Shown here: positions 22,257-54,012 of the stretch, in pieces
Numbering within the stretch: position 1 is the stretch's first letter
How the letters are laid out: the number at the start of each line of letters is the position of its first letter
NCBI GenBank assembly: GCA_903861145.1
Contig: CAIOTH010000113.1
Location: forward strand, 1-64,000
Direction: 5' to 3'
DNA length: 64,000 bases
Origin: an uncultured Bacteroidota bacterium
GTDB taxonomy: Bacteria; Bacteroidota; Bacteroidia; Chitinophagales; LD1
The notes under the pieces: model-generated
The model's input: only the letters and a program-made list of their open reading frames with translations
What the model was told of the DNA's origin: nothing
Database searches by the model: none
Program-made: the position numbers and the translations under genes

Positions 22257-23177
22257 ATGAGAAAGGTGATGAATGATGCCCAACTGGAGGCTATGTTTCA
22301 ACGTGATGGTTACGTTGAGATTCCTTTTATTTCAAAAGAAGAGGTTGAGGGCCTAAAGCAAAAGTTTTACGATACACTACCCAAAAGCGGTGGCCAGATA
22401 ACAGCCGGAGAAACCGGTGTTGAAGGTGCCGGTTTTATTACCTACGATTTTACCTTTATCGATAGGAACATCGATTACAAAAAAGAAGTCTTCAAAATCA
22501 TTACTGAATATTTTCAACCACATGTAGAAAAATGGTTGGCAGATTACAAACCCATCATAGCTAATTATATCCGCAAAAAAACCGATACCGGCGAAGTGCC
22601 CCTGCATCAAAACTGGGCTTTTGCCGATGAAAAAAAGGTTTGCACCGTTTCCATCTGGTGCCCTTTGGTAGATTCGTTTGAAGAGAATGGCACATTGCAG
22701 GTTGTGCCCGGTAGCCATAAACGCTTTGGCGAAGTCCGCGGGCCTATGATACCATGGGAGCTCGACGACATTAAAAGCGAAATCATATCAGGTTACCTTA
22801 AACCACTTAATGTAAAAGCCGGTAATGCCATTGTGCTGGATGATAGTATAGTACACTACTCGGCCATTAACAAAACCAACGACTTAAGGCTTGCTATACA
22901 GCTGATATTAATACCCGGTGAGGAGCCGTCGATACATTACCACATGAACCCTGCCGAAAGTGCCGAACTGGTAAATGTATTGGAGGTAGACCGCGATTTT
23001 TATATGCAGTTTAACCCCTGGAAACAACCGGAAGGAGCAAAAGTGGTTAAGCAGTTTAAACATCAACCGCGTCGTATTGACATAAAGGAATTTAATGTGC
23101 GCATGAAGGGCCCACGGATAGACGAGGAAGCTAAATCGAAAAATTTTGTAGAGAAGCTTAAGGCAGTTTTCTCATGA
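22257..23177 (+). CDS. PhyH-family protein 4 with HxN in place of HxD
   Basis: 306 residues, clearly homologous to its neighbours (SIWCPLVDSFEENGTLQVVPGSH). The metal motif reads LHQNW: His117 and Asn119, with codon AAC at 22611-22613, where all other PhyH domains here have Asp. The distal His200 and 2-oxoglutarate Arg211 are kept. Asn is a poor substitute for the carboxylate ligand, so the enzyme may be inactive, use a different chemistry, or serve as a partner subunit. It is not the HxG/HxA pattern of Fe/2-oxoglutarate halogenases. First gene of the array behind wzm. Confidence 0.85.
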   Translation: MRKVMNDAQLEAMFQRDGYVEIPFISKEEVEGLKQKFYDTLPKSGGQITAGETGVEGAGFITYDFTFIDRNIDYKKEVFKIITEYFQPHVEKWLADYKPIIANYIRKKTDTGEVPLHQNWAFADEKKVCTVSIWCPLVDSFEENGTLQVVPGSHKRFGEVRGPMIPWELDDIKSEIISGYLKPLNVKAGNAIVLDDSIVHYSAINKTNDLRLAIQLILIPGEEPSIHYHMNPAESAELVNVLEVDRDFYMQFNPWKQPEGAKVVKQFKHQPRRIDIKEFNVRMKGPRIDEEAKSKNFVEKLKAVFS

Positions 23178-23196
23178 CACCAATAAACAGCAATTG

Positions 23197-25101
23197 ATGA
23201 CACCGATATTTAATGATACCAGGTTACAGCAGCAGTTTGAAAAAGATGGATTTGTAGTTATCCCGTTTTTGAATGAGGCAGAAGCAAATAAGCTTTCGTC
23301 GTTTTTTTATGAGTTGCATAATAACGTGCCCGAAAACTTTTACTCAACAACTTTTAATGCCAGCCCCGAATTTAAGGGTCGAATAAACGAGGAGACAAAC
23401 AATGTTTTCGGCAGCAAGATTGATGGACTACTTACCGGCATTAAAAAGTTGGGAAGCAGTTTTTTATGCAAGGCCCCGGGCGCAGGTGGTAAAATGCCGG
23501 TTCACCAGGATTGGACGGTGGTTGACGAATCGAAATTTTGCTCAGTTACCATTTGGATACCTTTGGTTGATACGAACGAAAAGAATGGCGCCATTAGGGT
23601 ATTGTGCGGAAGCCACAAATTTACCGACACGTTACGTGCACCTACTTTACCCAGCGAATACGCTGCCTTGCAAGATGAGATTTGGAACGAAATGGAACTG
23701 CTCCCGATGAAAGCGGGTGAGGCTTTTATTTTTAACCACGCCTTATTACACGCATCCTCCGTAAATACAACTGATAAAGAAAGGCTGGCCATTACCTACG
23801 GTGTTATACCCACCGAGGCACGCTTAATGCTTTACCACTTAAATGAAAATAAAAAGCTCGAAAAATACCTGATGCCCGATGATATGTTTCAACGGTACCA
23901 TAACATTGGGCAGCGCCCTGAATTTGGTGAGCGGGTAGAGGAGTTTGCTTACGAAGTAAAGCCCATGAGCAGTTTAAAGCTGCATTCGCTTATCAATAAA
24001 GAAATAAGGAGCCGCAAGATGAAGCCCTTATTTAAGGATGCCGAAGTTCAAAAGTTTTTTGATGCCGAAGGTTATGCCAAAGTGCCGGTTTTGAATAGTG
24101 AAGAGGTGCAGCTATTGCTTGATTACTATAAAGGCCTGCAACTAAAAGATGAGGCCGGTTTTGGTTTTCACATCAGTATGGATGTAAAGGACAAAACCCT
24201 CGTGCCAAAAATTTTGGAGAAGATTTACGAAGTTGCTTTGCCTAAGGTAAGTGCTCATTTTGAAAATGCTAAACCGTTTGTAGGTAGCTTCGTAATAAAA
24301 GAACCAAACCCGATGGGCGTTGTGCCGGTGCACCAGGATTGGAGTTTTGTAGAAGACGAAGAACAGCATTGTTCGGTTACTTGTTGGGTGCCATTAGTTG
24401 ATACCAATCTCGATAATGGAGCCTTAGGTGTAGTTAGGGGCAGCCATAACTTTTTTCGCAGTCACCGGCCATCGCCATCACCACAAGTGCCATCACCCAT
24501 TTCCGAACACATGTTTACTATCTTCCCTTATCTTAAATTGGTGGAGATGAAGGCTGGTGAAGCCTTGATATTTGATAACCGTACTTTCCATGGTTCTCCT
24601 CCCAACTCGTCCGATTCTCCACGTATTGCGTTTGGAATTGGCTTTACACAAAACGATGCACAGCTTTGCCATTTTTATTTAAAGCCCGATGGCAATAAAA
24701 ATAAAATACTGAAGTATAAAATTGATAGCTCGTTTTTCTTTAAATACGAAAACCCGGGCCTGGCTAAAATGTACGACAAGGGTGAGTTAATTGAGGGATA
24801 CGATATGGTTGAAGAATTGCCTTTTGTGCTTCCAAAATTTACTGCCGATGAACTGGTAGACCTGATAAAAGAAAACGGTAATGAGTTTAACGTGCCTATG
24901 TGCGAAAAGCTGGCCAAGCTGTTTAGTTATAATATGGATGGCAGCAAAAAAGAAGAAGCCCAAAACAAACTGGAAGAAGTTAAGCAGGTAATTGAAGAGC
25001 CTAACGAGCCTTATGTGTGGGTTGACGACCGTAGCTTCTTCCAAAAATATACCCCGTTAAATGTGGTTCGCGAAATCAAAAAAAGACTTCAGTCCAATTA
25101 A
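23197..25101 (+). CDS. Tandem double-domain PhyH oxygenase (5 and 6)
   Basis: 634 residues from ATG 23197 (a TTG directly in front is ignored). Two complete PhyH domains stand head to tail. Domain 1 (about 5-265) has His103, Asp105, His185 and Arg196. Domain 2 (about 275-525) has His379, Asp381, His465 and Arg476. Both retain the full Fe(II)/2-oxoglutarate set. A charged segment of about 100 residues follows domain 2. The residues around the metal differ (HQDWTVVDESK against HQDWSFVEDEE), so the halves are old duplicates and may act on different positions. Start lies 17 bases after the preceding stop; operonic. Confidence 0.88.
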   Translation: MTPIFNDTRLQQQFEKDGFVVIPFLNEAEANKLSSFFYELHNNVPENFYSTTFNASPEFKGRINEETNNVFGSKIDGLLTGIKKLGSSFLCKAPGAGGKMPVHQDWTVVDESKFCSVTIWIPLVDTNEKNGAIRVLCGSHKFTDTLRAPTLPSEYAALQDEIWNEMELLPMKAGEAFIFNHALLHASSVNTTDKERLAITYGVIPTEARLMLYHLNENKKLEKYLMPDDMFQRYHNIGQRPEFGERVEEFAYEVKPMSSLKLHSLINKEIRSRKMKPLFKDAEVQKFFDAEGYAKVPVLNSEEVQLLLDYYKGLQLKDEAGFGFHISMDVKDKTLVPKILEKIYEVALPKVSAHFENAKPFVGSFVIKEPNPMGVVPVHQDWSFVEDEEQHCSVTCWVPLVDTNLDNGALGVVRGSHNFFRSHRPSPSPQVPSPISEHMFTIFPYLKLVEMKAGEALIFDNRTFHGSPPNSSDSPRIAFGIGFTQNDAQLCHFYLKPDGNKNKILKYKIDSSFFFKYENPGLAKMYDKGELIEGYDMVEELPFVLPKFTADELVDLIKENGNEFNVPMCEKLAKLFSYNMDGSKKEEAQNKLEEVKQVIEEPNEPYVWVDDRSFFQKYTPLNVVREIKKRLQSN

Positions 25102-25110
25102 ATAAATACC

Positions 25111-26016
25111 ATGTTTTCTTTTCCTAAAATGCTGAAAGTTTTTCGTGACCAGGCGCTGCAAGATGCGTTTGAGAAGGATGGTTTTGTTGTGGTTCCGTTT
25201 TACAACGAAGCGGAAATAAAGGAACTCACCGAGCTGTACTACCGCATGCACCCTCAGGATGAAAAAGGCTTTTTCCCCAGTACTTTTTCAAAAGATAAAA
25301 ACTACCGCGCTGTTGCTGATACCGAAATACGCCGTGTTTGCGCTCGTGCAATGGAACAATACCTGCAGGATATAAAAGTGATTTGTGGGAGCTTTATCGT
25401 TAAATCTCCTGGGCCCGAAAGTGCCATGTGTGTGCACCAGGATATGACCCTGGTGGATGAATCGAAATACACCGGTATGAATATTTGGGTGCCATTGACC
25501 GATTTAACACCAGAAAATGGTGCGCTGCAAATATTAAGGGGTAGCCACAGGTTATTCCCAACATACAGAGGTTCAACTATTCCGGGCATTTATGAAGAAG
25601 TGAGCGAAGAAATAAAAACATACCTGGAGACGCTTTACTTAAAAGCCGGTGAGGCAGTGTTTTTTGACCAAAGCATTATTCATTATTCGGCGGCTAATCT
25701 TTCCGATAAAGTACGCATTGTTACCAATACCTTTTTTACCAATAAAGACGCGAATTTCAACATTGGCTACTGGCGAAAAGATTTCGGAAGTAAAATTGAG
25801 CTGTTTGAAGAGGATGATAATTTTATGACAGATTTTGAGCAGTTTGGGCATAATATAGCCGACCGGCCAAAAATTGGAAAGAGCCTGGGATTAGTGGATT
25901 ATAATTTTCCAAAAATATCTTTGGAGCAATTGCAACGTATTTATGGTAAATCCGAAGAAAAATTACCGGTAAAAAAACCTTTGTTGAAAAGGGTATTTGA
26001 AAGCTTGTTTCAATAA
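25111..26016 (+). CDS. PhyH-family Fe(II)/2-oxoglutarate oxygenase 7
   Basis: 301 residues. His109 and Asp111 (VHQDMTLVDESKY), His191 and Arg202 are all present, with NIWVPLTDLTPENGALQILRG as core. Unlike most array members, Met follows HQD where the others have Trp, which may alter the pocket. The C-terminal 80 residues form the tail shared by the array, ending in a basic amphipathic stretch (LLKRVFESLF) that could touch a membrane or a partner. It begins 9 bases after the previous stop. Confidence 0.87.
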   Translation: MFSFPKMLKVFRDQALQDAFEKDGFVVVPFYNEAEIKELTELYYRMHPQDEKGFFPSTFSKDKNYRAVADTEIRRVCARAMEQYLQDIKVICGSFIVKSPGPESAMCVHQDMTLVDESKYTGMNIWVPLTDLTPENGALQILRGSHRLFPTYRGSTIPGIYEEVSEEIKTYLETLYLKAGEAVFFDQSIIHYSAANLSDKVRIVTNTFFTNKDANFNIGYWRKDFGSKIELFEEDDNFMTDFEQFGHNIADRPKIGKSLGLVDYNFPKISLEQLQRIYGKSEEKLPVKKPLLKRVFESLFQ

Positions 26017-26021
26017 ACAGT

Positions 26022-26951
26022 ATGTCTATCAGGATTTTTAAAGACGACCAAATGCAGGCCCTTTTTGATAAACAGGGCTTTTTAACTGTGCAGTTTATTA
26101 ATGAGGCAGAAGTAAAACAACTGAACGACCTGTTTGACCAACTACATCCCTCATTGCCACTGCAAGGATTTGTTTCAGGAAGCTACTCCGCCGATTTTGA
26201 ATACAAAAAAAGGGCAAGCAATGCCATTGTGGAAGTGCTTAACAAGCATTATGAACGCCTGTTTACAAATTACCAGGCCTTCGGTGCTGCGTTCCTTTTT
26301 AAAATGCCTTCTAACGATAGCGAATTAGGTATACATCAGGATTGGACCATTGTTGACGAAAATAAATTTGTAGCCCTTAATTGCTGGATACCACTTACCG
26401 ATATCAACGAAGCCAATGGTGCATTACATGTTGTGCCCGGGAGTCATTTCCCCTCCTACAATACCCTAAGAGCCCCCACGGTTCCTTTTTTCTTTTCGGG
26501 CAATGAGGATGTTGTTATTGCCGAATCGGTACCTATGTATGTAAAGGCGGGCGAGGCAGTAATTTTGAATCAAAGCGTTATTCACTACTCGCCACCTAAC
26601 CGGTCCGACAAAATACGAAAAGCTATAACCGCAGGAGTAAAATCGCAGGGCGCTCCTATGCATTTTCATTATAAAGCACCCGCCGATACCCACAAACTTG
26701 AAGTATTTGAAATGCCCGAAGACTTTTTAATAAGCTTTGACGATTTTTATAAAGACATTTTTGAACGGCCAAAAATGGGGCGCAGCGTTGGTTACCTAAA
26801 TTATTCCTCACCTGTGTTGCCGCGTGTTGAAGTTATGAACCTGATTTCAAATTTGAAAGTGAGCACCGGTTTTGAAAAAAAGAAATATGGTGAAGCGACC
26901 CAGCGGCACAAAGGTTTTTTTAAACGGCTTGTTGAGGCTCTTCAATCATGA
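26022..26951 (+). CDS. PhyH-family Fe(II)/2-oxoglutarate oxygenase 8
   Basis: 309 residues. His105 and Asp107 (IHQDWTIVDENK), His188 and Arg199 complete the site. The tail ends in FFKRLVEALQS, the same basic-amphipathic ending as its neighbours. Only 5 bases separate it from the upstream gene, and it shares 4 bases (ATGA) with the downstream one, so translation is likely coupled through the array. Confidence 0.87.
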   Translation: MSIRIFKDDQMQALFDKQGFLTVQFINEAEVKQLNDLFDQLHPSLPLQGFVSGSYSADFEYKKRASNAIVEVLNKHYERLFTNYQAFGAAFLFKMPSNDSELGIHQDWTIVDENKFVALNCWIPLTDINEANGALHVVPGSHFPSYNTLRAPTVPFFFSGNEDVVIAESVPMYVKAGEAVILNQSVIHYSPPNRSDKIRKAITAGVKSQGAPMHFHYKAPADTHKLEVFEMPEDFLISFDDFYKDIFERPKMGRSVGYLNYSSPVLPRVEVMNLISNLKVSTGFEKKKYGEATQRHKGFFKRLVEALQS

Positions 26952-27832
26952 GTGTAGCGCAGAAAATATTACAAGATGACCAACTTGATAGCCTGTTGTT
27001 ACAACAAGGTTTTGTAGTAATTCCTTTTTTGAATAGCGATGAGGTTAAGTCTTTAGTTAATTTTTATTATGAACACCACTCCAAAAGTCAGGACGGCATG
27101 TATGCTACGGCCCATGTACCCGATGTGGCCTTCAGGATGAAAATGAACGATTACATTAAGCAGGTTTTTGCACGTGCAATTGAGCAAACCTTTATTAATC
27201 ATACTGCCTTGGGGGGCTCGTTTATTGCGAAGGGTAAGGGGTCGTTGGGAACATTGCATCCGCATCAGGACTGGAACATTGTTGATGAAGAAATTTTCCG
27301 TTCGTTCAACATTTGGGTTCCGTTGGTTGATTTGAATGACGACAATGGGGTAATAAAAATACTGCCTGGTAGCCACGCATGGTTAACCACTTACCGTAGC
27401 GCCAATATATCTTCAGCTTACGGAAATGTAAACGATTTGCTTTGGCAAAAAATGGAGCCCTTATACATGAAAAAGGGAGAGGCGTTGATTTACGATCACC
27501 GCTTGCTACACGCTTCCGGCGAAAACAAATCAGATGAAATAAGGCTTGCGGCGGTATACGGTGTCATTCCGGACAAAAGCGAAATGCGCTATTATCATAA
27601 AGCCGATGAAAAGACCATAGAGGTTTTTGAATCGAACCCTGAGTTTTTTCTTTACGGCAATATTTTTGAAGGGCCTAAAGGCTTAAAGAGTTTGCTCCGG
27701 TTTGAATTTGAATTTCCTGAAGTCACTAGCGATAGGCTCAATCGGTTTATCAATCCAAATTACATAGCTCCGCAAAATGATTTGCCACCACCCTCGCTGT
27801 TCAATAGAATAAAATCCTTTTTAACCAGGTAG
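26948..27832 (+). CDS. PhyH-family Fe(II)/2-oxoglutarate oxygenase 9
   Basis: 294 residues and the last member of the array. His106 and Asp108 (HPHQDWNIVDEE), His188 and Arg199 are present. Ends with FNRIKSFLTR, again amphipathic and basic. It overlaps its upstream neighbour by 4 bases. Three bases after its stop lies the stop of the convergent arylsulfotransferase-like gene, so the plus-strand transcript ends here, with no obvious hairpin terminator. Confidence 0.87.
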   Translation: MSVAQKILQDDQLDSLLLQQGFVVIPFLNSDEVKSLVNFYYEHHSKSQDGMYATAHVPDVAFRMKMNDYIKQVFARAIEQTFINHTALGGSFIAKGKGSLGTLHPHQDWNIVDEEIFRSFNIWVPLVDLNDDNGVIKILPGSHAWLTTYRSANISSAYGNVNDLLWQKMEPLYMKKGEALIYDHRLLHASGENKSDEIRLAAVYGVIPDKSEMRYYHKADEKTIEVFESNPEFFLYGNIFEGPKGLKSLLRFEFEFPEVTSDRLNRFINPNYIAPQNDLPPPSLFNRIKSFLTR

Positions 27833-37593: not shown

Positions 37594-39531
37594 CTATTCG
37601 TTATCTATAACAGGCAAGTTATCCTCACCTCCGGGCAAAACACTATCCATTGGCATTACCATCTGCAGCGCAGGTCCGTTCAGCTTTACGTGAGGTACAA
37701 AATTAAAGGTATCGCGCTCGCTCAGGTAACCCCGCATCACCATCCGGTTGGCAATAATTTTAAAAAAGTCACCCATATATCCTTTAAGCTCACCGCTTTT
37801 GTCAAACTGGTATTTAAAATATTTGGGGTTAGGAATAATAGCTGCTAAAAAAATACATTCCTGCAAGGTAAGCTCCACCGGTCGTTCATTAAAATAAAAC
37901 CTTGCAGCTTCTGTAACACCATAAACATTAGGCCCCCACTCAATTACATTCAGGTAAACCTCCATCATTCTTTCTTTAGGCACCAGTCCAAGGTTTTCTA
38001 TCAGGTAAACAATCAGCGCCTCTTCCGCCTTACGGGAAATAGTCTTGTTCCGCGTTAAAAAAACATTTTTAACCAATTGCATGCTTATGGTGCTTCCCCC
38101 TCTGGCAAACCGGTGCTGCTTATAATTTTGGGCTATCGATTCTCTAAACGATTCAGGTACAAACCCCCTATGCACCATAAACGAAGGGTCTTCGCTTTGC
38201 ATAATAGCCACCAGTAGGTTAGGGCTTATATGGTTTAACGGCGTAAATTCCGGGTTCTCCGGCCCCACTACAATATGTCTTACAAATTGCTCTCCGCTAA
38301 AAGCATCGTACACAAACGGTTCATTAATGCGTGCGTAATCTTCAGCACCGGTTTGTATAATATGAAAGTTCTTACGCCTTAGCTGCGACTCAAATATCAG
38401 CGAATCGGGTTGACGCGTATTAATCAAAAACTGCAAATCATATGCCAGTGTGCCGCTACACTTTATGCCCTTTAAGGTATTAAACATGCCACCGGGCAAC
38501 GCATTAAAAAAAGTATCCGATCCGGTTTCGGGCATGTGCAGGCTAAAAGCAAAAACAGTATCCGGCATTGTTTGATAGCTGGTGAAAACCCTAAAGCTGG
38601 CGTGGTTGAATGTCCCCGTTGATGACGAGTCCAACTCAAAACCATCCTCCTTAATTTTAATAAGCCCTCTAAATTGCGCCGAAGGCAAAACGACATCCTC
38701 CTTTGCCAACCGCCAGTGCCGCACATGAAAATTCTCTACCGCAACAGTGGGTGAAATTTGTAAACCACCACCGGCTTCCTCTAATTTCACCTCAGCAGTT
38801 ACCGATTGAAACCGACATTTAAATCCACGCTCGGCATTCAAAAACGGCAAATAGACAAGCATGATGCCGCGATGTTTAATGGTTAGCTGGTAACTCTTGT
38901 TCCTCTCCAACACCTCCGCATTCACATCCAGCGTATCGCTTAGCTGCTCATTAATAATTGCACCCGAACAATGATGCCCATCGTAAACCAAGTGCGGCAC
39001 AAATACCTGCTCAACAAAAGTGGTATCCCGGTAACTTAAATGCATGTCACTAATTTCAACCGCAGTATTCAATAGCCTGAATAGATTGCTTTTCAAATCT
39101 TCGGCGCGCTCATAAAAATTGTGCTTGGCGCTTCCGCTACTTTCTCCGGTTGCCTGGCGGCCCCTTAAAAATAAAAGGTTGTTTCGCTCTGTCGAATTAA
39201 ACGCAGTAATCACCGCGCTATCTATCTTCAACTCGTTAAAATTTAATTTACCGGTCAACAGGCTCAATAGCGCCGGTTTAATTTCCAGGCTTTGAATAAT
39301 CGCCAAAGTATCGGCCCCCTCGGGTTGCGCGGTAATGCCATGCAATTGCACCCTGTTCCACTTAATAAATTTTATGCTGCCTACGTTAAGGTTTAAGTGG
39401 TAGCTCGCCTTTAGGTGTGCCTGTTCCCGCTTAAATGCCCACTGCAAAATACTGTCGCGGCCAATTGCAATTAATACAAGCAACGCTATTAAAAAAATCA
39501 ACCATAGCCCAAAGGCCCGCTCGCGTTTCAT
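37594..39531 (-). CDS. AsmA-like / GT51 peptidoglycan glycosyltransferase fusion
   Basis: 645 residues from ATG 39531. One N-terminal membrane segment is followed by about 390 residues of AsmA/TamB-type pattern at the start (short beta repeats such as VGSIKFIKWNRVQLHGI and LEIKPALLSLLTGKLNFNEL). The C-terminal domain (about 425-620) is a GT51 glycosyltransferase: QSEDPSFMVHRGF (Glu447), RGGSTISMQLVKNVFL, RKAEEA, YLNVIEWG and GVTEAARFYF. No transpeptidase domain follows. The enzyme would polymerise lipid II. An upstream ATG at 39615 is possible but lies beside a palindrome and adds no conserved sequence. Confidence 0.75.
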   Translation of the reverse strand: MKRERAFGLWLIFLIALLVLIAIGRDSILQWAFKREQAHLKASYHLNLNVGSIKFIKWNRVQLHGITAQPEGADTLAIIQSLEIKPALLSLLTGKLNFNELKIDSAVITAFNSTERNNLLFLRGRQATGESSGSAKHNFYERAEDLKSNLFRLLNTAVEISDMHLSYRDTTFVEQVFVPHLVYDGHHCSGAIINEQLSDTLDVNAEVLERNKSYQLTIKHRGIMLVYLPFLNAERGFKCRFQSVTAEVKLEEAGGGLQISPTVAVENFHVRHWRLAKEDVVLPSAQFRGLIKIKEDGFELDSSSTGTFNHASFRVFTSYQTMPDTVFAFSLHMPETGSDTFFNALPGGMFNTLKGIKCSGTLAYDLQFLINTRQPDSLIFESQLRRKNFHIIQTGAEDYARINEPFVYDAFSGEQFVRHIVVGPENPEFTPLNHISPNLLVAIMQSEDPSFMVHRGFVPESFRESIAQNYKQHRFARGGSTISMQLVKNVFLTRNKTISRKAEEALIVYLIENLGLVPKERMMEVYLNVIEWGPNVYGVTEAARFYFNERPVELTLQECIFLAAIIPNPKYFKYQFDKSGELKGYMGDFFKIIANRMVMRGYLSERDTFNFVPHVKLNGPALQMVMPMDSVLPGGEDNLPVIDNE

Positions 39532-39590
39532 AAATTCAAAAGTAGTGTGATTACTTACGGGTTTGAAGAAATGTTTAAAGACAACCGTAG

Positions 39591-39610
39591 GGGCGAAAAT
39601 TTTTTCGCCC
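39591..39610. repeat. Intergenic palindrome
   Basis: GGGCGAAAA, two bases, TTTTCGCCC: nine paired bases with runs of A and T at the centre. It lies 17 bases after the stop of the lytic transglycosylase gene (minus strand) and before the GT51 gene. It may act as a terminator or attenuator, or be one copy of a dispersed palindromic repeat (flanks GTAGG and TGC). Its presence argues against the GT51 start at 39615. Confidence 0.55.
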
Positions 39611-39627
39611 TGCATTCACTATTTGTA

Positions 39628-44343: not shown

Positions 44344-46500
44344 CTACAAATCCATCATTTTGTTGTAGGTTTTAATAAATATAGCTCCAAGGTTTTTGTG
44401 AGGTGGTATGTAATCCATAAACCTCTCATAGGCCTTGGGGTTATCTTTTACAGCCGCGTCCAAATCATTCCAAAGCAGCTGCCAATCCACATCCTTTCCC
44501 TCTCTTATATACTCGGCCATTAATTTCAGCATAGGGTTGTTTACCGCCCTGGTGCCAATCTGTTTGCTCGAAATGATACTTACTTCCGGCGACCGCTCAA
44601 TAATGCCCGATATACTATGATAGCCCCCGCACGAGCCCAAAACAAATATCTGCGTGTTCTCCCTTACCTTTTCAATCGTTTTAAAAGCGTAGTAGCTATG
44701 GCCGCGGTGTACCATTACATTGGGCTCGTAATCATTATTGGCAAACACCTGCTCTAAAGCAGCCTGTCCGTCGTACTCATCTTTCGATTTGTTGGCGTAT
44801 ATGTGCACCGACTTACCCATTTTCGATTGAATGATTACATAGGTGCCCGAGTCAACAACATTCCAGTTTTCGTCCTTAAACGTTTTAATAAATGTCGAGA
44901 ACGAAGCGTCTCCGTCCTCATCGTTGTAAAAATAAATAAGCCACCGGTCTATGCTATCGCGCCCAAATAACTTCGAGTTACTTATTTTATCAAACCTGGT
45001 TACAGCATATTGTTTCGAAACTGACGAAAACCAATCCGAGCTCCCCACGCTACGGTCAACAAATAAATTCGATAGCAAGCCATAAATAGCTGCACCCCGC
45101 GTATTGCCCTGCGATTTTTGCTTAATATATTCAAGCTTAATGGTGCCCCTCAAAATTTTTAGCACCAAGGGGTCGGTAATACTTCCAAAAGCATCAGCCA
45201 CCTCTACCGATTGCGACAAATCGCCATAATCGCCCAAACCGCTGGCAAAGTTTATCATCATCATTTGCTGGTATACCGGTGTCATGCTTTGCAAAAAGGT
45301 GCTTAGCTTACCAAACCCGGCGCACATTTTTATAAACGTGCGGAAACGGTTATCTCCCAAATCCTGCAAAAACTCAAAACCCGAAATAGGCGCCATTTTC
45401 ACCATCATTCGGTTAAACAATCCATTAAAGGTCGAAGTAAAAATTTCTTCTTCACTATATACCACCATGGTATATAGCTCCTGCGCCGAAAATCTTTCTA
45501 TCGAGGCAAACCTTACTTTATCCGGTTCATTGTGTAAGTCGTTTAAAACACGCACAAATTTGAGCGAGTAAATGGTAAGGTCATCTTCCAGCGAGTGAAC
45601 CCCCAATGGGTTTTTCCGCGCACGTATCCGCAACATGGCCTGTAAAAATTTGGCGGGGTCACTGCCTATCTCATCTGCCTGTTCAATGGTGCACCGTCCA
45701 TTGGCAATATCATCTATCAAAGTAAAGGCATTCGACCGCCGCGTATATTTTGCCATTATCTCAAGTACGATTTTCACTACGGTATCATCACTTGTTTTAA
45801 GCGCCTTAAAAATTACATCGCTCGGGTTAAAATATCGCTTTACAGTTACCGGTGCGGCTTTAGTAGCAAGCTCAAGCACAGGCAGCGCGTAATCCTTATT
45901 CCTGAAATTTCTGAAATTCAAAAAAACAAGGTCGGGCCGCGTCTTTGCGGCAAACAACAAAAAGGTATCTACGCAGGCCTCATTTTGTATTAAACTAAAC
46001 GTGTTGAATCCCTGAACAACATTATTGTTCAAATACCCACAAAGTTGGTGCTGCCTTATGGCATTCAACTCACCCAGCATAAACCTGAAAATATTATCAA
46101 AGCGCTTTACCGAATAAATATTGGCACGGTTTACTTTATGCAATTGTGTGTACAAGTACTCGCGCAGTTCGTTTTTCCGGGTAACATCAAAGTCGGGCTT
46201 TTCAATTACGCGCTGTATAGAATCGACCAACTTAAAATAAACCCTTTGCGCATAGGCATTGATAGCCGAGTCGCCCAAATCAACCATTCCATCTTCAGCG
46301 CCATCAAACAAATCAATTCTCTTTTGTTCTCCATCCACTATGTCTCCATCGGCCTCATTACTGCCTGCATAAATTGGTAAATTAGGGTTGGCTTTTATTG
46401 TAGTACAAAAGCAAAACAAAAGCAACGCTGCAAATAAAATTTTTGCAACGGTTAGCCAGCGGGGCACGTACAACAATTTATTTGCAGCGTTTAATGGCAT
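44344..46500 (-). CDS. Secreted protein of unknown family with His/Cys dyad, shorter paralogue
   Basis: 718 residues, N-terminal hydrophobic signal segment (about 19-36). I recognise no named family. An alpha-helical module (ALPVLELATKAAPVTVKRYF from about residue 205 onward, then LIDDIANGRC) is shared with the upstream paralogue. The C-terminal 170 residues hold an acidic loop (YNDEDGDASF), then VMVHRGHSYY with His598 and His601, FVLGSCGGY with Cys624, and IISSKQIGTRAVNN. A His then Cys after short hydrophobic strands, with GSCGG before ISS, recalls clan CD peptidases (caspase, gingipain, CHAT). The gene lies 3 bases behind its paralogue, one operon. Protease function is inference. Confidence 0.65.
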   Translation of the reverse strand: MPLNAANKLLYVPRWLTVAKILFAALLLFCFCTTIKANPNLPIYAGSNEADGDIVDGEQKRIDLFDGAEDGMVDLGDSAINAYAQRVYFKLVDSIQRVIEKPDFDVTRKNELREYLYTQLHKVNRANIYSVKRFDNIFRFMLGELNAIRQHQLCGYLNNNVVQGFNTFSLIQNEACVDTFLLFAAKTRPDLVFLNFRNFRNKDYALPVLELATKAAPVTVKRYFNPSDVIFKALKTSDDTVVKIVLEIMAKYTRRSNAFTLIDDIANGRCTIEQADEIGSDPAKFLQAMLRIRARKNPLGVHSLEDDLTIYSLKFVRVLNDLHNEPDKVRFASIERFSAQELYTMVVYSEEEIFTSTFNGLFNRMMVKMAPISGFEFLQDLGDNRFRTFIKMCAGFGKLSTFLQSMTPVYQQMMMINFASGLGDYGDLSQSVEVADAFGSITDPLVLKILRGTIKLEYIKQKSQGNTRGAAIYGLLSNLFVDRSVGSSDWFSSVSKQYAVTRFDKISNSKLFGRDSIDRWLIYFYNDEDGDASFSTFIKTFKDENWNVVDSGTYVIIQSKMGKSVHIYANKSKDEYDGQAALEQVFANNDYEPNVMVHRGHSYYAFKTIEKVRENTQIFVLGSCGGYHSISGIIERSPEVSIISSKQIGTRAVNNPMLKLMAEYIREGKDVDWQLLWNDLDAAVKDNPKAYERFMDYIPPHKNLGAIFIKTYNKMMDL

Positions 46501-46503
46501 CAG

Positions 46504-49500
46504 TTATACTCCCAAAATTTTGTAATACGCCCTTATAAAAATTGCCTCTAGGTTTTTGTGGGGAGGCACATAGTCACCAAAGTACTGATTGTGGCCAAGT
46601 TTCTCACTCATTTTTCCCCAAAACTCATTCCAGTCAATGTCTTTTCCGCTTCGTATGTTTTCGTTCAGCGCATAAAGCATTACATCATTAACCGATTTTG
46701 TGCCCACCTGCTTGGTTGATATGATATGTGCATCGGGTGCGTTTTCAAGGGCTACAGATATTTTATAAAATCCTCCGCACGAGCCTACAAACAACAGCCT
46801 TGTAGTAGCCGGTATCCTTTGTAAAGTTGATTCAGTATGAAAGCTATGCCCTCTATGCACTACTACCGTAGGCACCAGGTTGTTGGCCTTAAAATAATCG
46901 TTAATAGCACTTACCCCGTTTTCTTCCGAGCCGGGTTTGTTAGCCAGAATTTCAACCTTTTTTTGCAGCCTGGAATAAATACGCACATAACTGTTTTTAT
47001 CTTCTACACCCCAGGCGTTTTGGTTTTTATAGCTGTTCATAAAGTTGATAAATGAACTGCGGCCGTCATCATCATCGTAAAAAAACATTTGCTCGGCGCA
47101 AACATTGCCATCATTAAACAATGCAGTGGATGCCAGGGTATTAACCGGCGATATTTTAAACTGTTGTGCTATTGACTTATACCAAGGAGCCTCAACCTTC
47201 GCGTTGCCCGATATCATACTCGAAAGCACACCGTAAATCGAAATGCCAAACTGGTCTCTGGCTGATTTTACGCGCTCATACTCCTTCTTAATACTTTCCT
47301 GCAAAACAGTCAATAATGAATTATCCCTCAGGTTCGAAATAGCTTCTGCCACAAGCACTATCGATGACAGGTCATCCTTTTGGGCTTCAAGCTTGCTAAC
47401 GTATGCCTGTAAAAGTTTCTCCTTTGCCACAGGCGAAAACTTGGTTAAAAACTCCTCCAGCGTACCATAGTTGGCGCAAAGCGAAATAAAATCCCTAAAC
47501 TGGTTATAGTTAACGGCGCCCAAAAAAGCCTCTCCGTTATCCTTTGGCAGCTTTTGAATAAACCGGTTAAACAACCCCGTAAACGTTGAAGTAAAAACTT
47601 CATCCCTGCCGTACAGCATTAAAAAATAAAGGTCGGCCGAGCCAAAATTTTCTACCGACGAAAACGGCTGCTGCGCACCGGTGGCTATCTTCTCGTTTAT
47701 TTCTCGTATAAACCTTAAGCTATAGTCGCGCATTTCGCGGTTAATGCTATACTTGCCTATGTACTTGGGCCGCGATATTATTTTAACAACGGTACTAAAA
47801 AGCAAGTTGGGGTCGTTGCTTACAGTTATTGCTTCGGCGGTACTCATTTTGCCAGCTACAATATCATCCAGCAAAAGCAATGGTTTACTTTGGTAGCCCA
47901 GGGTTGGGTTTATTTCAAATATCTTTTTTACAACCGGGTTTTGGCTGTATTGTAATATATAGTTGTTAGCCTCGTGCGGGTTGTATAAATATCTCTTTAT
48001 AGATACCGGTGCGTTAATAGCGCACTCTTCCAGTACTTTTTTGCAGAAAAATTTGCCCTTAAAGGCTCCTATTTTCTTTAATAACTCATCGGGCTCTTTT
48101 TGTGCAGCATATAGCAACACTTCCTCGGCATAATCCTTATTAATAAATGCCGGAATATTTTGGATAGTCTGTAGTATGTTCTTCTTCAATGCTACCACTG
48201 CCCTTGTGCGCTCATCCAAATTCACTTTAAACGATTCAATGGCTTCTGGTATGGGTACTGGAACTAAGTCCTTGTTAACCACCTCCGGCTCCTTGGTTTT
48301 TACAGGGGTTACCGGGGCCGGGGCAATATCCGGGGTTAATATTTCTTTCCGTGGTTTTTCGCTCACCAACACCGGCTCCTCTGTTGCTTTACGCGTATTA
48401 ATAATCGGTGCAGATACCTGTACCGGTTCTTCTTTCTTTTGGTTTACCGGTTGCGATTGAACTACCGTTGTCGGCTCTGGTTGTGGTACGGGTTTCTCTG
48501 TGGCTGGTTTTACCGGCTGGTTTATTACTGGAACAACCGCCACCTTTTGGTCGGCCGTTACTTCGGCTTTTGTTTGCGGTGTCGTTGGTTTAATCGGCTC
48601 CGCCACCTGGGTTTTCATCTCGGGTACGGGTTGAATTTCCTTTTTCGCAACAGTCATTTCTGCCGCCGGTCTGGCTATGGTATCGTGTGTAACACTTGTT
48701 TCCGGTTTCACTTCAGTCGTTGAGGGTTTTACTGATGGCGGTTCAGGCGATACCACGTCGGGTGCAACAGCCTTAGGCGGCCGGGCTTGCACAATTCCCT
48801 TCAGGCTTTGGTCTTCGGGCTTGCCGTTCCCAATATCCGCCTGCCGGTTAAAATTCATAAATGGCGGGGTAAGTGTTTCTTTGCGGGTGTAAGTGGTTAG
48901 GGCAAGCAAATACTCTTTCCTGTTATCATCAACCAGTGCCAGTAATTGATCAAGCACCTTGTTTTTGTAGCAAAAAATCACAAAATCCTTTAGCTTCTCT
49001 TTGTCCATATTGGCAATCATCACACTGCTAATAGTTGCACCCTTTGCTTTGGTGCGCAGTATTTCGAAGAAGCCCGGAAAAGTTCTTGGCGTGGTTTCCT
49101 TAAACCCATAATTCAGTAACTGAAACATTTCTTCTGTTGAGTTTCTGCTGAATGCTTCGAAGTTGTAACCAGGCCCGGCAATAAGCGCATCCTGGTTTAT
49201 TTTCCGCATTGTTTCAACACAATACATATCAATAAACCGGTTTGATGAATATGTTATGGGGGCATCGTATTTCATGCACAAGCCTACCTGCAAGCTAAAC
49301 ATCAGGTTGGGATGAATGCCAAATGAATCTGCAACCTGCATACTCATATTGTTCTTTACAATTTCATCCAGCAACAAATAAGCACGTGACCTAAGCCCAA
49401 AACGGTCATAAATATCAAGCGACTTTTTTACGTACGGGTCTTTGCTCGTTCGCAACAAATCGCTTACTGTATTGCCCGAGGTATAGTATCTTTTGGCCGA

Positions 49501-50094
49501 TTCCGGGGCCAGTTTAGTAGCTTTCTCCAACACCCTAAGCGCAAATTTGCGGTCATCAAACTCCTCGGCATATCTAAATACATCATCGGGGTTGTCGTTC
49601 ATGTAGTCCACCAAAAAGTCTTCAGCAGCAATTTCGTTGGGTATTAACCTGGCGGCCTTAATTGTAAAGTCCGAATAACGTTTAATGTTGTTCGTAAGGT
49701 CATCATTCTCATCCCACTCAATCATTACCGAAAAATAGCTCAGCACTGCCAGGTAAGTGCCCGATTTAAAGTAACTGTCGGAGTAATACCTGTTTACATT
49801 ACTCAAAAACATTTGCAGCCTGTTTAGGTAAATGTTTCTTTTGTCCTTAGTTACCGGCTGGCGCATAATAAACGCAATTACGCTATCGGTCATGGCAAAA
49901 AAGCGGCTGTCGGCACTCTTAAAATCGTGGGCAATGCGGGTCTTTTCAAAGCTTATCCGCTTAAGCAAATTAATCCTCTCGTCTTCATACAAATCATAGG
50001 CCGATGAGTCGGGTGGGGTTAGCGTGGCGGCGCTTAAATCCTTTGCAAAAAGAAAAGCAACAAACAGAAATAATATTTTCGGAACCGCCTTCAA
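46504..50094 (-). CDS. Secreted protein of unknown family with His/Cys dyad, duplicated and Pro-rich paralogue
   Basis: 1196 residues, TTG start at 50094 followed by a clear signal peptide (KILFLFVAFLFAKDLSA). No ATG is available upstream in frame. Layout: helical module copy A (about 150-400), a Pro/Glu/Val/Thr-rich linker (about 425-616), helical module copy B (about 620-1000, collinear with the 718-residue paralogue), then the C-terminal signature VVVHRGHSFH (His1080, His1083), FVGSCGGF (Cys1106) and IISTKQVGTKSVND. The His-to-Cys spacing of 26 is identical in both paralogues. Probably exported to the periplasm or cell surface. The activity is unknown; a clan CD-like peptidase is the leading guess. 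Confidence 0.65.
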   Translation of the reverse strand: MKAVPKILFLFVAFLFAKDLSAATLTPPDSSAYDLYEDERINLLKRISFEKTRIAHDFKSADSRFFAMTDSVIAFIMRQPVTKDKRNIYLNRLQMFLSNVNRYYSDSYFKSGTYLAVLSYFSVMIEWDENDDLTNNIKRYSDFTIKAARLIPNEIAAEDFLVDYMNDNPDDVFRYAEEFDDRKFALRVLEKATKLAPESAKRYYTSGNTVSDLLRTSKDPYVKKSLDIYDRFGLRSRAYLLLDEIVKNNMSMQVADSFGIHPNLMFSLQVGLCMKYDAPITYSSNRFIDMYCVETMRKINQDALIAGPGYNFEAFSRNSTEEMFQLLNYGFKETTPRTFPGFFEILRTKAKGATISSVMIANMDKEKLKDFVIFCYKNKVLDQLLALVDDNRKEYLLALTTYTRKETLTPPFMNFNRQADIGNGKPEDQSLKGIVQARPPKAVAPDVVSPEPPSVKPSTTEVKPETSVTHDTIARPAAEMTVAKKEIQPVPEMKTQVAEPIKPTTPQTKAEVTADQKVAVVPVINQPVKPATEKPVPQPEPTTVVQSQPVNQKKEEPVQVSAPIINTRKATEEPVLVSEKPRKEILTPDIAPAPVTPVKTKEPEVVNKDLVPVPIPEAIESFKVNLDERTRAVVALKKNILQTIQNIPAFINKDYAEEVLLYAAQKEPDELLKKIGAFKGKFFCKKVLEECAINAPVSIKRYLYNPHEANNYILQYSQNPVVKKIFEINPTLGYQSKPLLLLDDIVAGKMSTAEAITVSNDPNLLFSTVVKIISRPKYIGKYSINREMRDYSLRFIREINEKIATGAQQPFSSVENFGSADLYFLMLYGRDEVFTSTFTGLFNRFIQKLPKDNGEAFLGAVNYNQFRDFISLCANYGTLEEFLTKFSPVAKEKLLQAYVSKLEAQKDDLSSIVLVAEAISNLRDNSLLTVLQESIKKEYERVKSARDQFGISIYGVLSSMISGNAKVEAPWYKSIAQQFKISPVNTLASTALFNDGNVCAEQMFFYDDDDGRSSFINFMNSYKNQNAWGVEDKNSYVRIYSRLQKKVEILANKPGSEENGVSAINDYFKANNLVPTVVVHRGHSFHTESTLQRIPATTRLLFVGSCGGFYKISVALENAPDAHIISTKQVGTKSVNDVMLYALNENIRSGKDIDWNEFWGKMSEKLGHNQYFGDYVPPHKNLEAIFIRAYYKILGV

Positions 50095-50196: not shown

Positions 50197-50694
50197 ATGA
50201 AAAATACACGTGTCCTTTTTTCTGCTTTAGCAGTTATAATGCTTTTTACCGCATGCAATCAAAAAGCCAAACGCGCAAAGGAGTATCACGATAACTTGCT
50301 ACACTCCGTACAGGTGGTAATTGATAGCTCGCTGGAGTATGGCGATGCCATACAAAGCCACGATAAAGACCGTGCATTAAGGGCCCAGCAGCAATACTCA
50401 AGTTTGGTAGATAAAACAATTGAGAAGATCAATACCACCGGAAATTTTGATGATGATACCCTCCTAAAACATTACTCGCTCGAACTTTTAGGCTTTTATC
50501 GCACCTCGCTCGACAAGGATTTTACCCCTTTTTTGAATGGACTTAAATCGAATGAGCTTTCGGAACAGGAAAGTATGATTGCCGATTCGCTGTACAGCAA
50601 ACTCACCATGACCGAAAACAACTATTGGGAAAGATTTGATTGGGCTGAGAAGAAATTCTCGAAACAATATGAGTTAAGCAAGCTGGAAAAGTAG
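50197..50694 (+). CDS. Small lipoprotein of unknown function
   Basis: 165 residues. Signal peptide with lipobox Cys20 (LFTACNQK). The mature part is helical and charged, with pairs of Leu/Tyr heptads (YHDNLLHSVQVVIDSSLEYGDAI, split by Asp/Lys), resembling small helical-bundle lipoproteins of Bacteroidota and Leptospira. No catalytic motif. It diverges from the His/Cys paralogue operon, 102 bases apart, and converges with the response regulator gene, four bases apart. Confidence 0.7.
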   Translation: MKNTRVLFSALAVIMLFTACNQKAKRAKEYHDNLLHSVQVVIDSSLEYGDAIQSHDKDRALRAQQQYSSLVDKTIEKINTTGNFDDDTLLKHYSLELLGFYRTSLDKDFTPFLNGLKSNELSEQESMIADSLYSKLTMTENNYWERFDWAEKKFSKQYELSKLEK

Positions 50695-51643: not shown

Positions 51644-52552
51644 TTATAACAGTTTATTAATCTTCGAAATCATATTCGCGGTTTCCTGCTGCTGGCCACA
51701 CAAATTAAGGTGATACCATTGATCGTAAAACAATGTTGAATCCATCAAAAATGGATCATTAAGCATGGTTATGGACTTAAAGGTAGATTTAATTTTCACG
51801 AGGCCCTTCAAACTTACCCTGTTCTCGGCGATATCAGGTATTGGGGTAAACAGAATAAATATTTTTTGCTTTTCGCTTCTTAAAGAGTTAACAAATTTCA
51901 AATCATCTGCGGTATAGACTACATCTTTAATAATGTGCTTTTCTATTTCAAATTTTTCGTTGCAATTAGAGTACGTGGTTGAATGCGTATTTAGCGAGTC
52001 CATGACCCTGTCCCTGTCTGTATGAGCGATATAATCGCGCGGCAAAAACGGTGTGCGATACTTGCTTATTGAGTCGTAATAACTGTTCCAATTAAAGAAA
52101 ATGAGCTTGGGGTTATGAATAATTACATTTTTGCTATAGGCATAACAACCCACACATAAAAAGTGGTACCGGCTTTCGTTTACAAAAGTTGACCTTACCA
52201 AAATATTATACGGTACATATAAAATTATCTCATCATAATTTTTTGTAAGATTTTGATCATTTAAAAATTGAAGAAATGATGAGTTTTCGCTACCTGAAAA
52301 ATACAGGAAATCTACATCCGCATTAGCTTCCTTTTGCACCTTCTTGAAATCAATGTTATGCTGTAGATTAGAACACCCTATCACAACCACCTTTTTCGAG
52401 TGTCTTCGTTCCGCAGAAATTAATTTAACCGAACCGTAGGTTGGGCTATAATACCTGGTGTATAATCTATACAGCCCAAAGGCAGGCAGGCCTATATTAA
52501 TAAGCACAACTGCTAACAATGGTATTGATATTTTAAAGAAAAACTTTCTCAT
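51644..52552 (-). CDS. SGNH/DltD-like partner of MBOAT
   Basis: 302 residues with one N-terminal membrane segment (about 7-24). VVVIGCSNLQHN has the nucleophile Ser61 in G-C-S-N, where typical members read G-D-S; a Cys next to the Ser is unusual. The C-terminal block FYDQWYHLN (Asp277, His281) supplies the likely Asp/His. The start overlaps the MBOAT stop by one base (TAATG), so the two are translationally coupled. Acyl transfer to the extracellular glycan is inferred from the pair. Confidence 0.7.
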   Translation of the reverse strand: MRKFFFKISIPLLAVVLINIGLPAFGLYRLYTRYYSPTYGSVKLISAERRHSKKVVVIGCSNLQHNIDFKKVQKEANADVDFLYFSGSENSSFLQFLNDQNLTKNYDEIILYVPYNILVRSTFVNESRYHFLCVGCYAYSKNVIIHNPKLIFFNWNSYYDSISKYRTPFLPRDYIAHTDRDRVMDSLNTHSTTYSNCNEKFEIEKHIIKDVVYTADDLKFVNSLRSEKQKIFILFTPIPDIAENRVSLKGLVKIKSTFKSITMLNDPFLMDSTLFYDQWYHLNLCGQQQETANMISKINKLL

Positions 52553-54012
52553 TAAAATTGGAAATATATAAATGTCTGAACTTTCCTTTCAATGCGGTTT
52601 TGATAAAGTTTCATAAAACAGCATTGCATAACACATACGTAAATTATCAGTCTAAAGGCATAAGGGATTTTAGGCATTCTTATTTTCCGTTCATCTCTTC
52701 TTAACCACCAGTCTATTATCAATAAAAGGGTAATTAAAAAAAATGCCCAATAACATGAAGGCGAAAGCTGAAATTGTCCAAAAGGGTGAAAAATTCCCGT
52801 TACAATTCGCTTAATGTAATCCAAGGCAATTCGCACGCCGTGCGCTCTAAAAAATATCCAGGCAAATGTAACAAACACAAAGGTTGATGCCATTTGCACA
52901 AGTTCCTTAATGGTAGGATATTTTCTGTTTTGCGCAACTATTTCCGACCCATATTTTCTGTTCCGATTTAATAGCAGCAACGGAAGAAATCCGCATGCAT
53001 GAATAAATCCCCATGCAATGAAGCTCCAACTTGCCCCATGCCAAAAGCCGCTTACAATAAAAATGATAAACGTATTTCGCACGGCAGTCAGCTTACTACC
53101 CCTTGAACCTCCCAAAGGGATATACAGGTAATCCCGGAACCAGGATGACAGGGATATGTGCCAGCGCCGCCAAAATTCGGCAATGTCACGAGAAAAATAG
53201 GGGTATTTAAAGTTACTCAGCAATTCAAATCCAAACAACTTAGCCGTACCCAAGGCAATGTCTGAATAACCGCTAAAATCTCCGTATATCTGAAAACTGA
53301 AGGCAAATGCCCCAACAATAAGCATTAGGGCATTTTGAGATTGATAGTGCTCAAAAACGGAATCTGCCGTTACGGCCAGTCCATCGGCAATCACCATTTT
53401 TTTAAACAGGCCCCACAGAATCAAGCGACAACCATCGGCTGCGTCATCATAATTAAAGTTTCGCTTGCGCTGCACCTGGGGCAGCAAATGATGTGCCCTT
53501 TCAATTGGCCCTGCCACCAAAAGTGGGAAAAAGCTTACAAATACGGCGTAATCAATAAATTCAGTTATCGGTTTTTGTCTGTTTCGATAAATATCAAAAA
53601 CGTAAGACATGCCATGGAAGGTATAAAACGAAATACCTATTGGCAAGGCAATATGAAGCAAAACCGCATCGGCGTGCAGCCCGAACCCCTGCAACCCGTG
53701 TTGCAATTGTAATGCAAAGAAATTATAATATTTGAACACCCCTAAAATCCCCAGGTTATTCACAATGCCTAGCAACAAAAAAAAGCGCGCCTTTTTTCTG
53801 TTCGGTGAGGCTACGCCGAATCCATAGGCATAATCGAGAAAAGTGCTTAATGCCAAAAGTCCAAGAAACTTATAACTCCACCAACCATAAAAAAAATAAC
53901 TGGCCGCAAGAATTAATAAATTCTGAATTCGTAAAGTTCGGTTAAACACAAGCCAATAAAGGCAGAATACGATTGGCAGGAATACGAAAAACTCGATTGA
54001 ATTAAATAGCAT
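52552..54012 (-). CDS. MBOAT O-acyltransferase (AlgI/PatA-like) 2
   Basis: 486 residues, about ten membrane segments. IYGDFSGYSDIALGTAKLFG (242-261), EFWRRWHISLSSWFRDYLY with His285, IPLGGSRG and SGFWHGASW with catalytic His325 give the complete signature. In contrast to the first MBOAT in this window (WRRWN), the motif WRRWH is canonical. Works with the SGNH protein encoded one base downstream. Located at the edge of the Wza/Wzc locus, so it probably acylates that polysaccharide. Confidence 0.9.
   Translation of the reverse strand: MLFNSIEFFVFLPIVFCLYWLVFNRTLRIQNLLILAASYFFYGWWSYKFLGLLALSTFLDYAYGFGVASPNRKKARFFLLLGIVNNLGILGVFKYYNFFALQLQHGLQGFGLHADAVLLHIALPIGISFYTFHGMSYVFDIYRNRQKPITEFIDYAVFVSFFPLLVAGPIERAHHLLPQVQRKRNFNYDDAADGCRLILWGLFKKMVIADGLAVTADSVFEHYQSQNALMLIVGAFAFSFQIYGDFSGYSDIALGTAKLFGFELLSNFKYPYFSRDIAEFWRRWHISLSSWFRDYLYIPLGGSRGSKLTAVRNTFIIFIVSGFWHGASWSFIAWGFIHACGFLPLLLLNRNRKYGSEIVAQNRKYPTIKELVQMASTFVFVTFAWIFFRAHGVRIALDYIKRIVTGIFHPFGQFQLSPSCYWAFFLITLLLIIDWWLRRDERKIRMPKIPYAFRLIIYVCVMQCCFMKLYQNRIERKVQTFIYFQF

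Follow-up and report, generated by a model that had tools for sequence, protein, structure and literature searches.

A locus in the genome of an uncultured Bacteroidota bacterium (Chitinophagales, LD1; contig CAIOTH010000113.1 of GenBank assembly GCA_903861145.1) raises the question what is encoded by two large, adjacent genes, here called A and B, that resemble each other and no recognised family. The window referred to below is the whole stretch of 64,000 nucleotides that was analysed. In it, both genes lie on the minus strand, gene B upstream of gene A, with three bases between the stop codon of B and the ATG of A. It is considered rather likely that protein A (718 amino acids) and protein B (1196 amino acids) are new exported, probably periplasmic, cysteine peptidases, in which a clan CD-like domain (of the caspase/separase/CHAT type) lies behind an alpha-helical solenoid. 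A reading made from the sequence alone had proposed two neighbouring open reading frames (ORFs) with a common C-terminal domain, and its motifs were recovered exactly in both proteins, namely HRGHS, GSCGG, a spacing of 26 residues from the first His to the Cys (His598-Cys624 in A, His1080-Cys1106 in B), and IIS(S/T)KQ(I/V)GT, present as IISSKQIGT and IISTKQVGT in A and B. The likeness of both proteins is not due to chance, because their match had an E value of 3.9e-114 and the two His residues and the Cys were invariant in 17 sequences, a set consisting of A, B, and 15 relatives picked by similarity and ORF length, without the motif.

Proteins A and B belong to an unnamed bacterial family that is invisible to the domain libraries searched here. 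The first reading had recognised no family for them, and searches of both proteins against all Pfam families (E values up to 5) gave only a chance Recombinase match (0.21, in B), and NCBIfam gave nothing except a stray match at 0.027. Similarly, the 17 members showed scattered weak matches only in Pfam (E values up to 0.1), NCBIfam, and PADLOC. At curated cut-offs, PF12770 (CHAT), PF03415 (Peptidase_C11), and PF00656 (Peptidase_C14) had no matches in the organism's own genome, PF12770 was absent among the 25 families listed for 122 members, and the separase (C50) and gingipain (C25, including PF01364) profiles matched neither A, B, nor the 17 members in the Pfam scans. Sequence searches of the PDB with the domain and with the whole family returned chance-level matches only, and no paper on such Chitinophagaceae peptidases or on the HRGHS-GSCGG motif was found in the open PMC literature.

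The existence of the family, its conservation, its predicted fold, and the duplication behind B were established by computation. Protein A as a single query matched 14 of the 395 genomes of the phylum, and an alignment query matched 129 of the 298 genomes of the order, among them G486 (3.1e-4), a match that was gone with a better profile. All 30 genomes of the window's own family matched, as did 186 of the 195 genomes (163 of the 167 good ones) of the Chitinophagaceae-like family f2, whose link with the Chitinophagaceae is probable; Chitinophaga and Taibaiella are among the named relatives. When a cross-phylum profile was used, matches occurred in 24 of the 395 genomes of the class; two weak ones were dismissed, and the other 22 (E values of 3.2e-74 or better) include f120 and f125, two Bacteroidia families outside the order. 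The matches in G107 (a 46-residue frame, with stops within the match) and G1045 (6.3e-4) were taken as chance, and the tallies of 129/298, 15/395, and 24/395 still contain the dismissed matches (G486, G107, G1045). A scan of public genome contigs with protein A alone gave no relative; an alignment-based scan gave 581 relatives, and 79 loci were kept. No relative was found in the phage records and viral contigs searched. A tblastn search of plasmid records yielded four Azospirillum proteins, annotated as hypothetical. The corresponding genes (L271-L274) are located on large plasmids, and three of the four adjoin DUF1194 and ethanolamine utilisation genes.

Conservation was concentrated in the C-terminal motifs. 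Residues H598, R599, G600, H601, S602, G622, C624, and G625 were invariant in the 17 sequences. Harvesting by motif retrieved 193 ORFs with 155 unique sequences, overlapping copies of some ORFs being included; they came from 155 of the 157 loci, and the other two (L003 and L078), which have no motif, hold the N-terminal part only. The harvest pattern fixed three positions (first His, Gly, and Cys) but not the Arg, the second His, or the spacing (15-40 residues), which were still constant in the 193 ORFs and the 155 unique sequences. In a cross-phylum set of 28 rows, D527, D529, HRGHS, G622, S623, C624, and G625 were invariant. Indeed, His and Cys, on whose conservation in homologues the first reading depended, were kept as far away as Azospirillum, of which the four proteins are 18-20% identical to A overall, with an unchanged spacing of His, His, and Cys. 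They also keep FYDDPDG, HRGHSYH, GSCGG, the Trp pair, and the final Tyr-x-x-Pro, and the SSKQ motif was not present in them. Therefore, D527, D529, the two His residues, and the Cys form the universal core, to which the Lys-Gln of IISSKQ does not belong. The alignments contain two features of clan CD, namely a His followed by a Cys, both invariant, and a Gly adjoining the catalytic His (G600 beside H601, invariant). In one respect, the first reading has to be corrected: the likelier catalytic His is the second one of HRGHS (His601), 23 residues before the Cys.

Structure prediction gave a confident model, with a helical solenoid followed by an alpha/beta domain. AlphaFold models of full-length protein A and of its residues 500-718 had predicted local distance difference test (pLDDT) values of 91.0 and 94.4 and predicted template modelling (pTM) scores of 0.83 and 0.91, respectively. 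The domain model starts with strand 18-25, a helix, strands 47-51, 55-60, and 65-71, and a helix (domain numbering), and continues with strand 96-100, which ends at the first His, a helix, strand 119-123 followed by the Cys, a helix, strand 142-146, and helices. H99 and H102 follow strand 96-100 and C125 follows strand 119-123, these strands being consecutive in the sequence, and the acidic loop comes after the first strand. In clan CD, according to the available part of PMC4357240, core strands three and four end in the His and the Cys, the His has a Gly as neighbour, and P1 recognition involves residues of the first loop and helix. Judged by the order of the DSSP elements in the sequence only, His and Cys would likewise be placed at the C-terminal ends of core strands three and four in the model. 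Since the invariant D527/D529, G600-H601, and C624 occupy three clan CD places, we infer an H601/C624 dyad and a cysteine peptidase.

Structure comparison pointed in the same direction. When a second aligner re-ranked Foldseek's top 1000, iotapain came first for the domain (Z 8.5, root-mean-square deviation [rmsd] 4.1, 179 residues), followed by Csx29 (Z 8.2, rmsd 3.5, 142 residues), a Gtr1p-Gtr2p chain (Z 7.9), and caspase-6 (Z 7.7). For full-length A, separase was on top (Z 9.8, rmsd 5.0, 210 residues), followed by DdvA (Z 9.5, rmsd 3.6, 156 residues; and Z 8.9) and, lower, iotapain (8.6 and 8.1), Gtr1p (8.0), Csx29 (7.9), the tetratricopeptide repeat (TPR)-CHAT protein of Craspase (7.8), Gtr1p again (7.8), and Craspase (7.5). 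Eight of these ten rows (1-5, 7, 8, and 10) are clan CD structures (separase, CHAT, TPR-CHAT, and C11). DdvA was counted among them because a CHAT profile, constructed with 23 Bacteroidia domains, matched it (residues 838-968, E value of 7.9e-9) and also picked up the Craspase proteins in the PDB. Neither gingipain nor legumain appeared in the 50 rows listed by each re-ranking, which excludes nothing. A search of a viral structure library brought up GTPases and unnamed proteins.

In weak profile-profile alignments, the family also came into register with CHAT and C14. The comparison made use of 25 of 30 CHAT, 25 of 30 C14, and 29 of 30 FeoB domains, the rest being dropped as cut or of ambiguous frame. 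In the best local alignment of the family, Cys624 fell on the catalytic Cys of both CHAT (E value of 0.054) and C14 (E value of 0.078), and the FeoB GTPase control gave an alignment of one column. Column shuffles reached the observed score in 3 of 150 cases for CHAT, 9 of 150 for C14, and 136 of 150 for FeoB; as a yardstick, CHAT against C14 had an E value of 3.9e-6. Once the confidence threshold was lifted, His601 also fell on the CHAT His along the CHAT path. A C11 profile, made of two sequences only, showed no strong match to any.

Several results weigh against a clan CD peptidase. The clan CD core is a six-stranded sheet, of which the sixth strand is antiparallel and comes after the fifth helix, as given in the accessible part of PMC4357240. 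This sixth caspase strand was not seen in the model, which has seven strands and only two-residue bridges after helix 152-167, and the domain is therefore named clan CD-like and not filed as a member. The clan CD reading made from the sequence nevertheless withstood both results that could have refuted it, since the predicted fold ranks with separase, CHAT, C11, and Csx29 structures and the His and Cys are conserved; overall, that reading is supported in part. Foldseek itself ranked small GTPases first (best E value of 3.2e-4), no clan CD entry occurred among the 50 best Foldseek rows listed, and two of the top ten rows of full-length A were Gtr1p GTPase entries. A non-catalytic binding domain, such as a degenerate GTPase-like one that shares the strand-helix order, was weighed as well and appears very improbable, as a Walker A pattern was found anywhere in the C-terminal domain in only one of 155 members, conservation clusters on His, Cys, and Asp instead of nucleotide motifs, and the proteins look exported; a GTPase proper was rejected for lack of Walker A. 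Furthermore, the Z values reached (8-10) lie close to the usual background, values of 7-8 being common background, and therefore the structure ranking is support, not proof. The profile-profile E values (0.035-0.078) are not significant, the C14 path leaves the His unaligned, the best local match of the full-length profile to CHAT lies elsewhere, no Pfam peptidase family matched A, B, or the members scanned, and no partner or substrate gene was conserved nearby in the 80 loci compared.

A rival reading is a non-peptidase His-Cys enzyme on a similar alpha/beta sheet, such as an acyl- or amide-transferring envelope enzyme with Cys624 as nucleophile. GSCGG directly before a helix also resembles a generic nucleophile elbow, no peptidase profile matched significantly, and a His-Cys spacing this short is uncommon in clan CD. 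Such an enzyme is nevertheless unlikely, given that several distinct clan CD families come together in the structure re-ranking and that the Cys/His register agrees with CHAT.

The family most likely works like a clan CD enzyme. In such a mechanism, the solenoid would bind a partner or substrate and position or gate the C-terminal domain. His601 would activate Cys624, which would then attack the peptide bond beside the residue read by the D527/D529 loop. This loop is a candidate substrate (S1) pocket or ion site; a basic P1 residue is the simplest guess from the acidic first loop, as with Asp163 in gingipain, an ion site being equally possible. In gingipain, an Asp in the first helix reads the P1 Arg (available text of PMC4357240). 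Alternatively, His598, His601, Cys624, and the D527/D529 loop might hold a metal ion in a metalloenzyme or sensor domain. Two His, one Cys, and two Asp residues are indeed invariant, all in loops that follow strands within one domain, and weak EF-hand-like matches occurred in a few members. However, each EF-hand model matched at most five of 122 members, and Bacteroidia CHAT domains also keep two invariant His residues (H148 and H152) before the Cys, much like H598/H601, so that the second His needs no metal; a metal site is accordingly rated as improbable.

Among known systems, TPR-CHAT proteins (Csx29/Craspase) resemble A and B in having an alpha-solenoid followed by a C-terminal His...Cys domain. 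In Csx29, this solenoid-plus-peptidase layout includes a TPR region that relays activation to the protease (PMC10028731, in the part available), and by analogy the solenoid of A and B may gate the enzyme. Unlike TPR-CHAT proteins, A and B are apparently exported and not CRISPR-bound, and a pseudo-caspase domain was not identified in them. Separase (C50), the top structural row, shares a long helical region and a C-terminal catalytic domain, whereas A and B are bacterial, exported-looking, and much smaller, and sequence similarity was not found. The C11 peptidases (iotapain and clostripain) are secreted by bacteria, as the family probably is, and share with it the extra strands before the His strand, and iotapain aligned over 179 of the 219 residues of the family domain; unlike C11, the family lacks a PF03415 match and a processing linker that separates His from Cys. 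DdvA is a transmembrane anti-sigma factor (PDB 8rot and 8rw5) whose CHAT-type domain aligned with A, whereas no anti-sigma part was identified in A and B; no paper on DdvA was found in the open literature. Gingipain (C25) is a secreted Bacteroidota clan CD peptidase that also has a Gly beside the catalytic His (accessible part of PMC4357240), but A and B have no PF01364 match and no room for the C-terminal domain of the type IX secretion system (T9SS).

The family further differs in its His-Cys spacing, which is 23 residues (H601-C624) compared with 45 in Bacteroidia CHAT domains and 46 in PmC11. For gingipain, the catalytic His is presumably His211, which gives 33 residues. The available text of PMC4357240 prints His221/Cys244, equal to a spacing of 23, but the glycines that it places on either side of the His (210 and 212) point to His211. 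Longer spacings than that of the family are also found in Csx29 (43; H615/C658; PMC10028731, part available) and in C11, with 55 for clostripain and 49 for iotapain (residues 134/183; PMC11296011, part available).

Export of both proteins, as claimed initially, is suggested by hydrophobic, signal-like N-termini, with 12-residue Kyte-Doolittle maxima of 3.06 (A) and 2.58 (B), a support drawn from sequence only. By a crude measure, 113 of the 129 unique members of at least 640 amino acids have a strongly hydrophobic N-terminal stretch and five a lipobox-like pattern, and the periplasm is the best guess for their location. Transport as T9SS cargo was rejected by reasoning, not by a search, since the catalytic domain runs to the very C-terminus and leaves no room for a sorting domain.

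The first reading had also suggested that A and B might form a secreted protease or signalling pair. They are adjacent in the window, but the pair is lineage-specific, most relatives being single genes. A tree of 122 domains put 18 of the 19 upstream pair copies in one clade of 23 (support 0.93), along with L124 and four loci that are cut off; the remaining copy belongs to a separate tandem pair of Taibaiella koreensis (L133). The gene is single in most other lineages, and B-type frames in the window's family are mostly 1,020-1,280 residues long. To the first reading it has to be added that the N-terminal helical part occurs twice in B, which consists, in order, of a signal-like N-terminus, the first solenoid copy, a linker, the second solenoid copy, and the catalytic-type domain. 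Protein B is a tandem duplicate that gained its second solenoid by fusion, and the A-B pair, although old, is confined to a local elaboration and does not represent the basic unit. As the genes are adjacent, B may work with A. More tentatively, the family could represent an unnamed class of envelope-located, solenoid-gated separase/CHAT-like proteases, core in Chitinophagaceae and also occurring in Azospirillum, with a compact core that lacks the usual His-Cys insertion and the sixth strand; by duplication in one lineage, it would have become a system of two proteins, A and B, which might act outside the cytoplasm as a sensor and a protease. If the peptidase reading is right, the caspase-separase-gingipain group would gain a family located in the envelope of an entire bacterial family, and the compactness of its catalytic core could help to show what clan CD chemistry requires. 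The near-universal presence in f2 points to a basic envelope task instead of optional defence or scavenging. Anti-phage defence was rejected on the core-gene distribution and the lack of a PADLOC match for the window's A. The coordinates of both proteins and their parts are listed below.

Table. Position of proteins A and B and of their features in the window.
Feature	Position	Strand	Description or basis
Protein A	44344..46500	-	ORF; 718 amino acids; signal-like N-terminus, alpha-solenoid, and C-terminal clan CD-like domain
A, residues 1-38, putative hydrophobic export signal, type I-like	46387..46500	-	Hydropathy 3.06; helix 14-32 in model
A, residues 53-497, all-helical solenoid	45010..46344	-	DSSP of model; no Pfam match
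A, residues 515-718, alpha/beta catalytic-type domain	44347..44958	-	Domain model of residues 500-718
A, D527-x-D529, invariant acidic loop after first strand	44914..44922	-	Alignments
A, HRGHS 598-602, end of His strand	44695..44709	-	Motif search, alignments, model
A, GSCGG 622-626, Cys624 at end of next strand	44623..44637	-	Motif search, alignments, model
A, IISSKQIGT 642-650, following strand and loop	44551..44577	-	Kept in Bacteroidota, replaced in Azospirillum
Protein B	46504..50094	-	ORF; 1196 amino acids; TTG start
B, solenoid copy 1, without catalytic domain	48967..49914	-	Matches A84-394, E value 1.4e-20
B, linker rich in Pro/Val/Thr/Lys, about residues 421-640	48175..48834	-	Composition
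B, solenoid copy 2 and catalytic-type domain	46513..48192	-	Matches A156-716, 35% identity, E value 3.9e-114
B, HRGHS 1080-1084	46843..46857	-	Motif search
B, GSCGG 1104-1108, Cys1106	46771..46785	-	Motif search

The neighbourhoods of the family genes vary by lineage and contain an LIC11966 lipoprotein and a response regulator, TrmH and MutS, or GlyA and a PPK2-like protein; neighbour labels were mostly read from the sequence, only the LIC11966 protein and the response regulator of the window being profile-checked. The LIC11966-family surface lipoprotein of the window (50197-50694, plus strand; NCBIfam E value of 7e-15) is encoded divergently from B, and a relative lies beside family genes in 11 of the 80 loci, the window included. 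In 13 loci (L094, L096-L099, L101, L102, L104, L108, L110, L114, L115, and L130), a secreted subtilisin-like protease, recognised by eye, occurs near MutS, mostly with TrmH, and a family gene. Elsewhere in the window, an MBOAT acyltransferase adjoins a 302-amino-acid protein without Pfam match (51644-54012, minus strand), which together look like an exopolysaccharide acetylation pair, followed by a glycosyltransferase and a polysaccharide export gene. A 673-amino-acid protein (37594-39615, minus strand) combines weak AsmA/DUF748-like N-terminal matches with a clear peptidoglycan transglycosylase (GT51) at residues 452-602, and may be an unusual fusion. Lastly, five consecutive phytanoyl-CoA dioxygenase (PhyH) genes (22257-27832, plus strand), one of which encodes 635 amino acids with two matched stretches, form an unusual tandem array beside an ABC-2 transporter gene.

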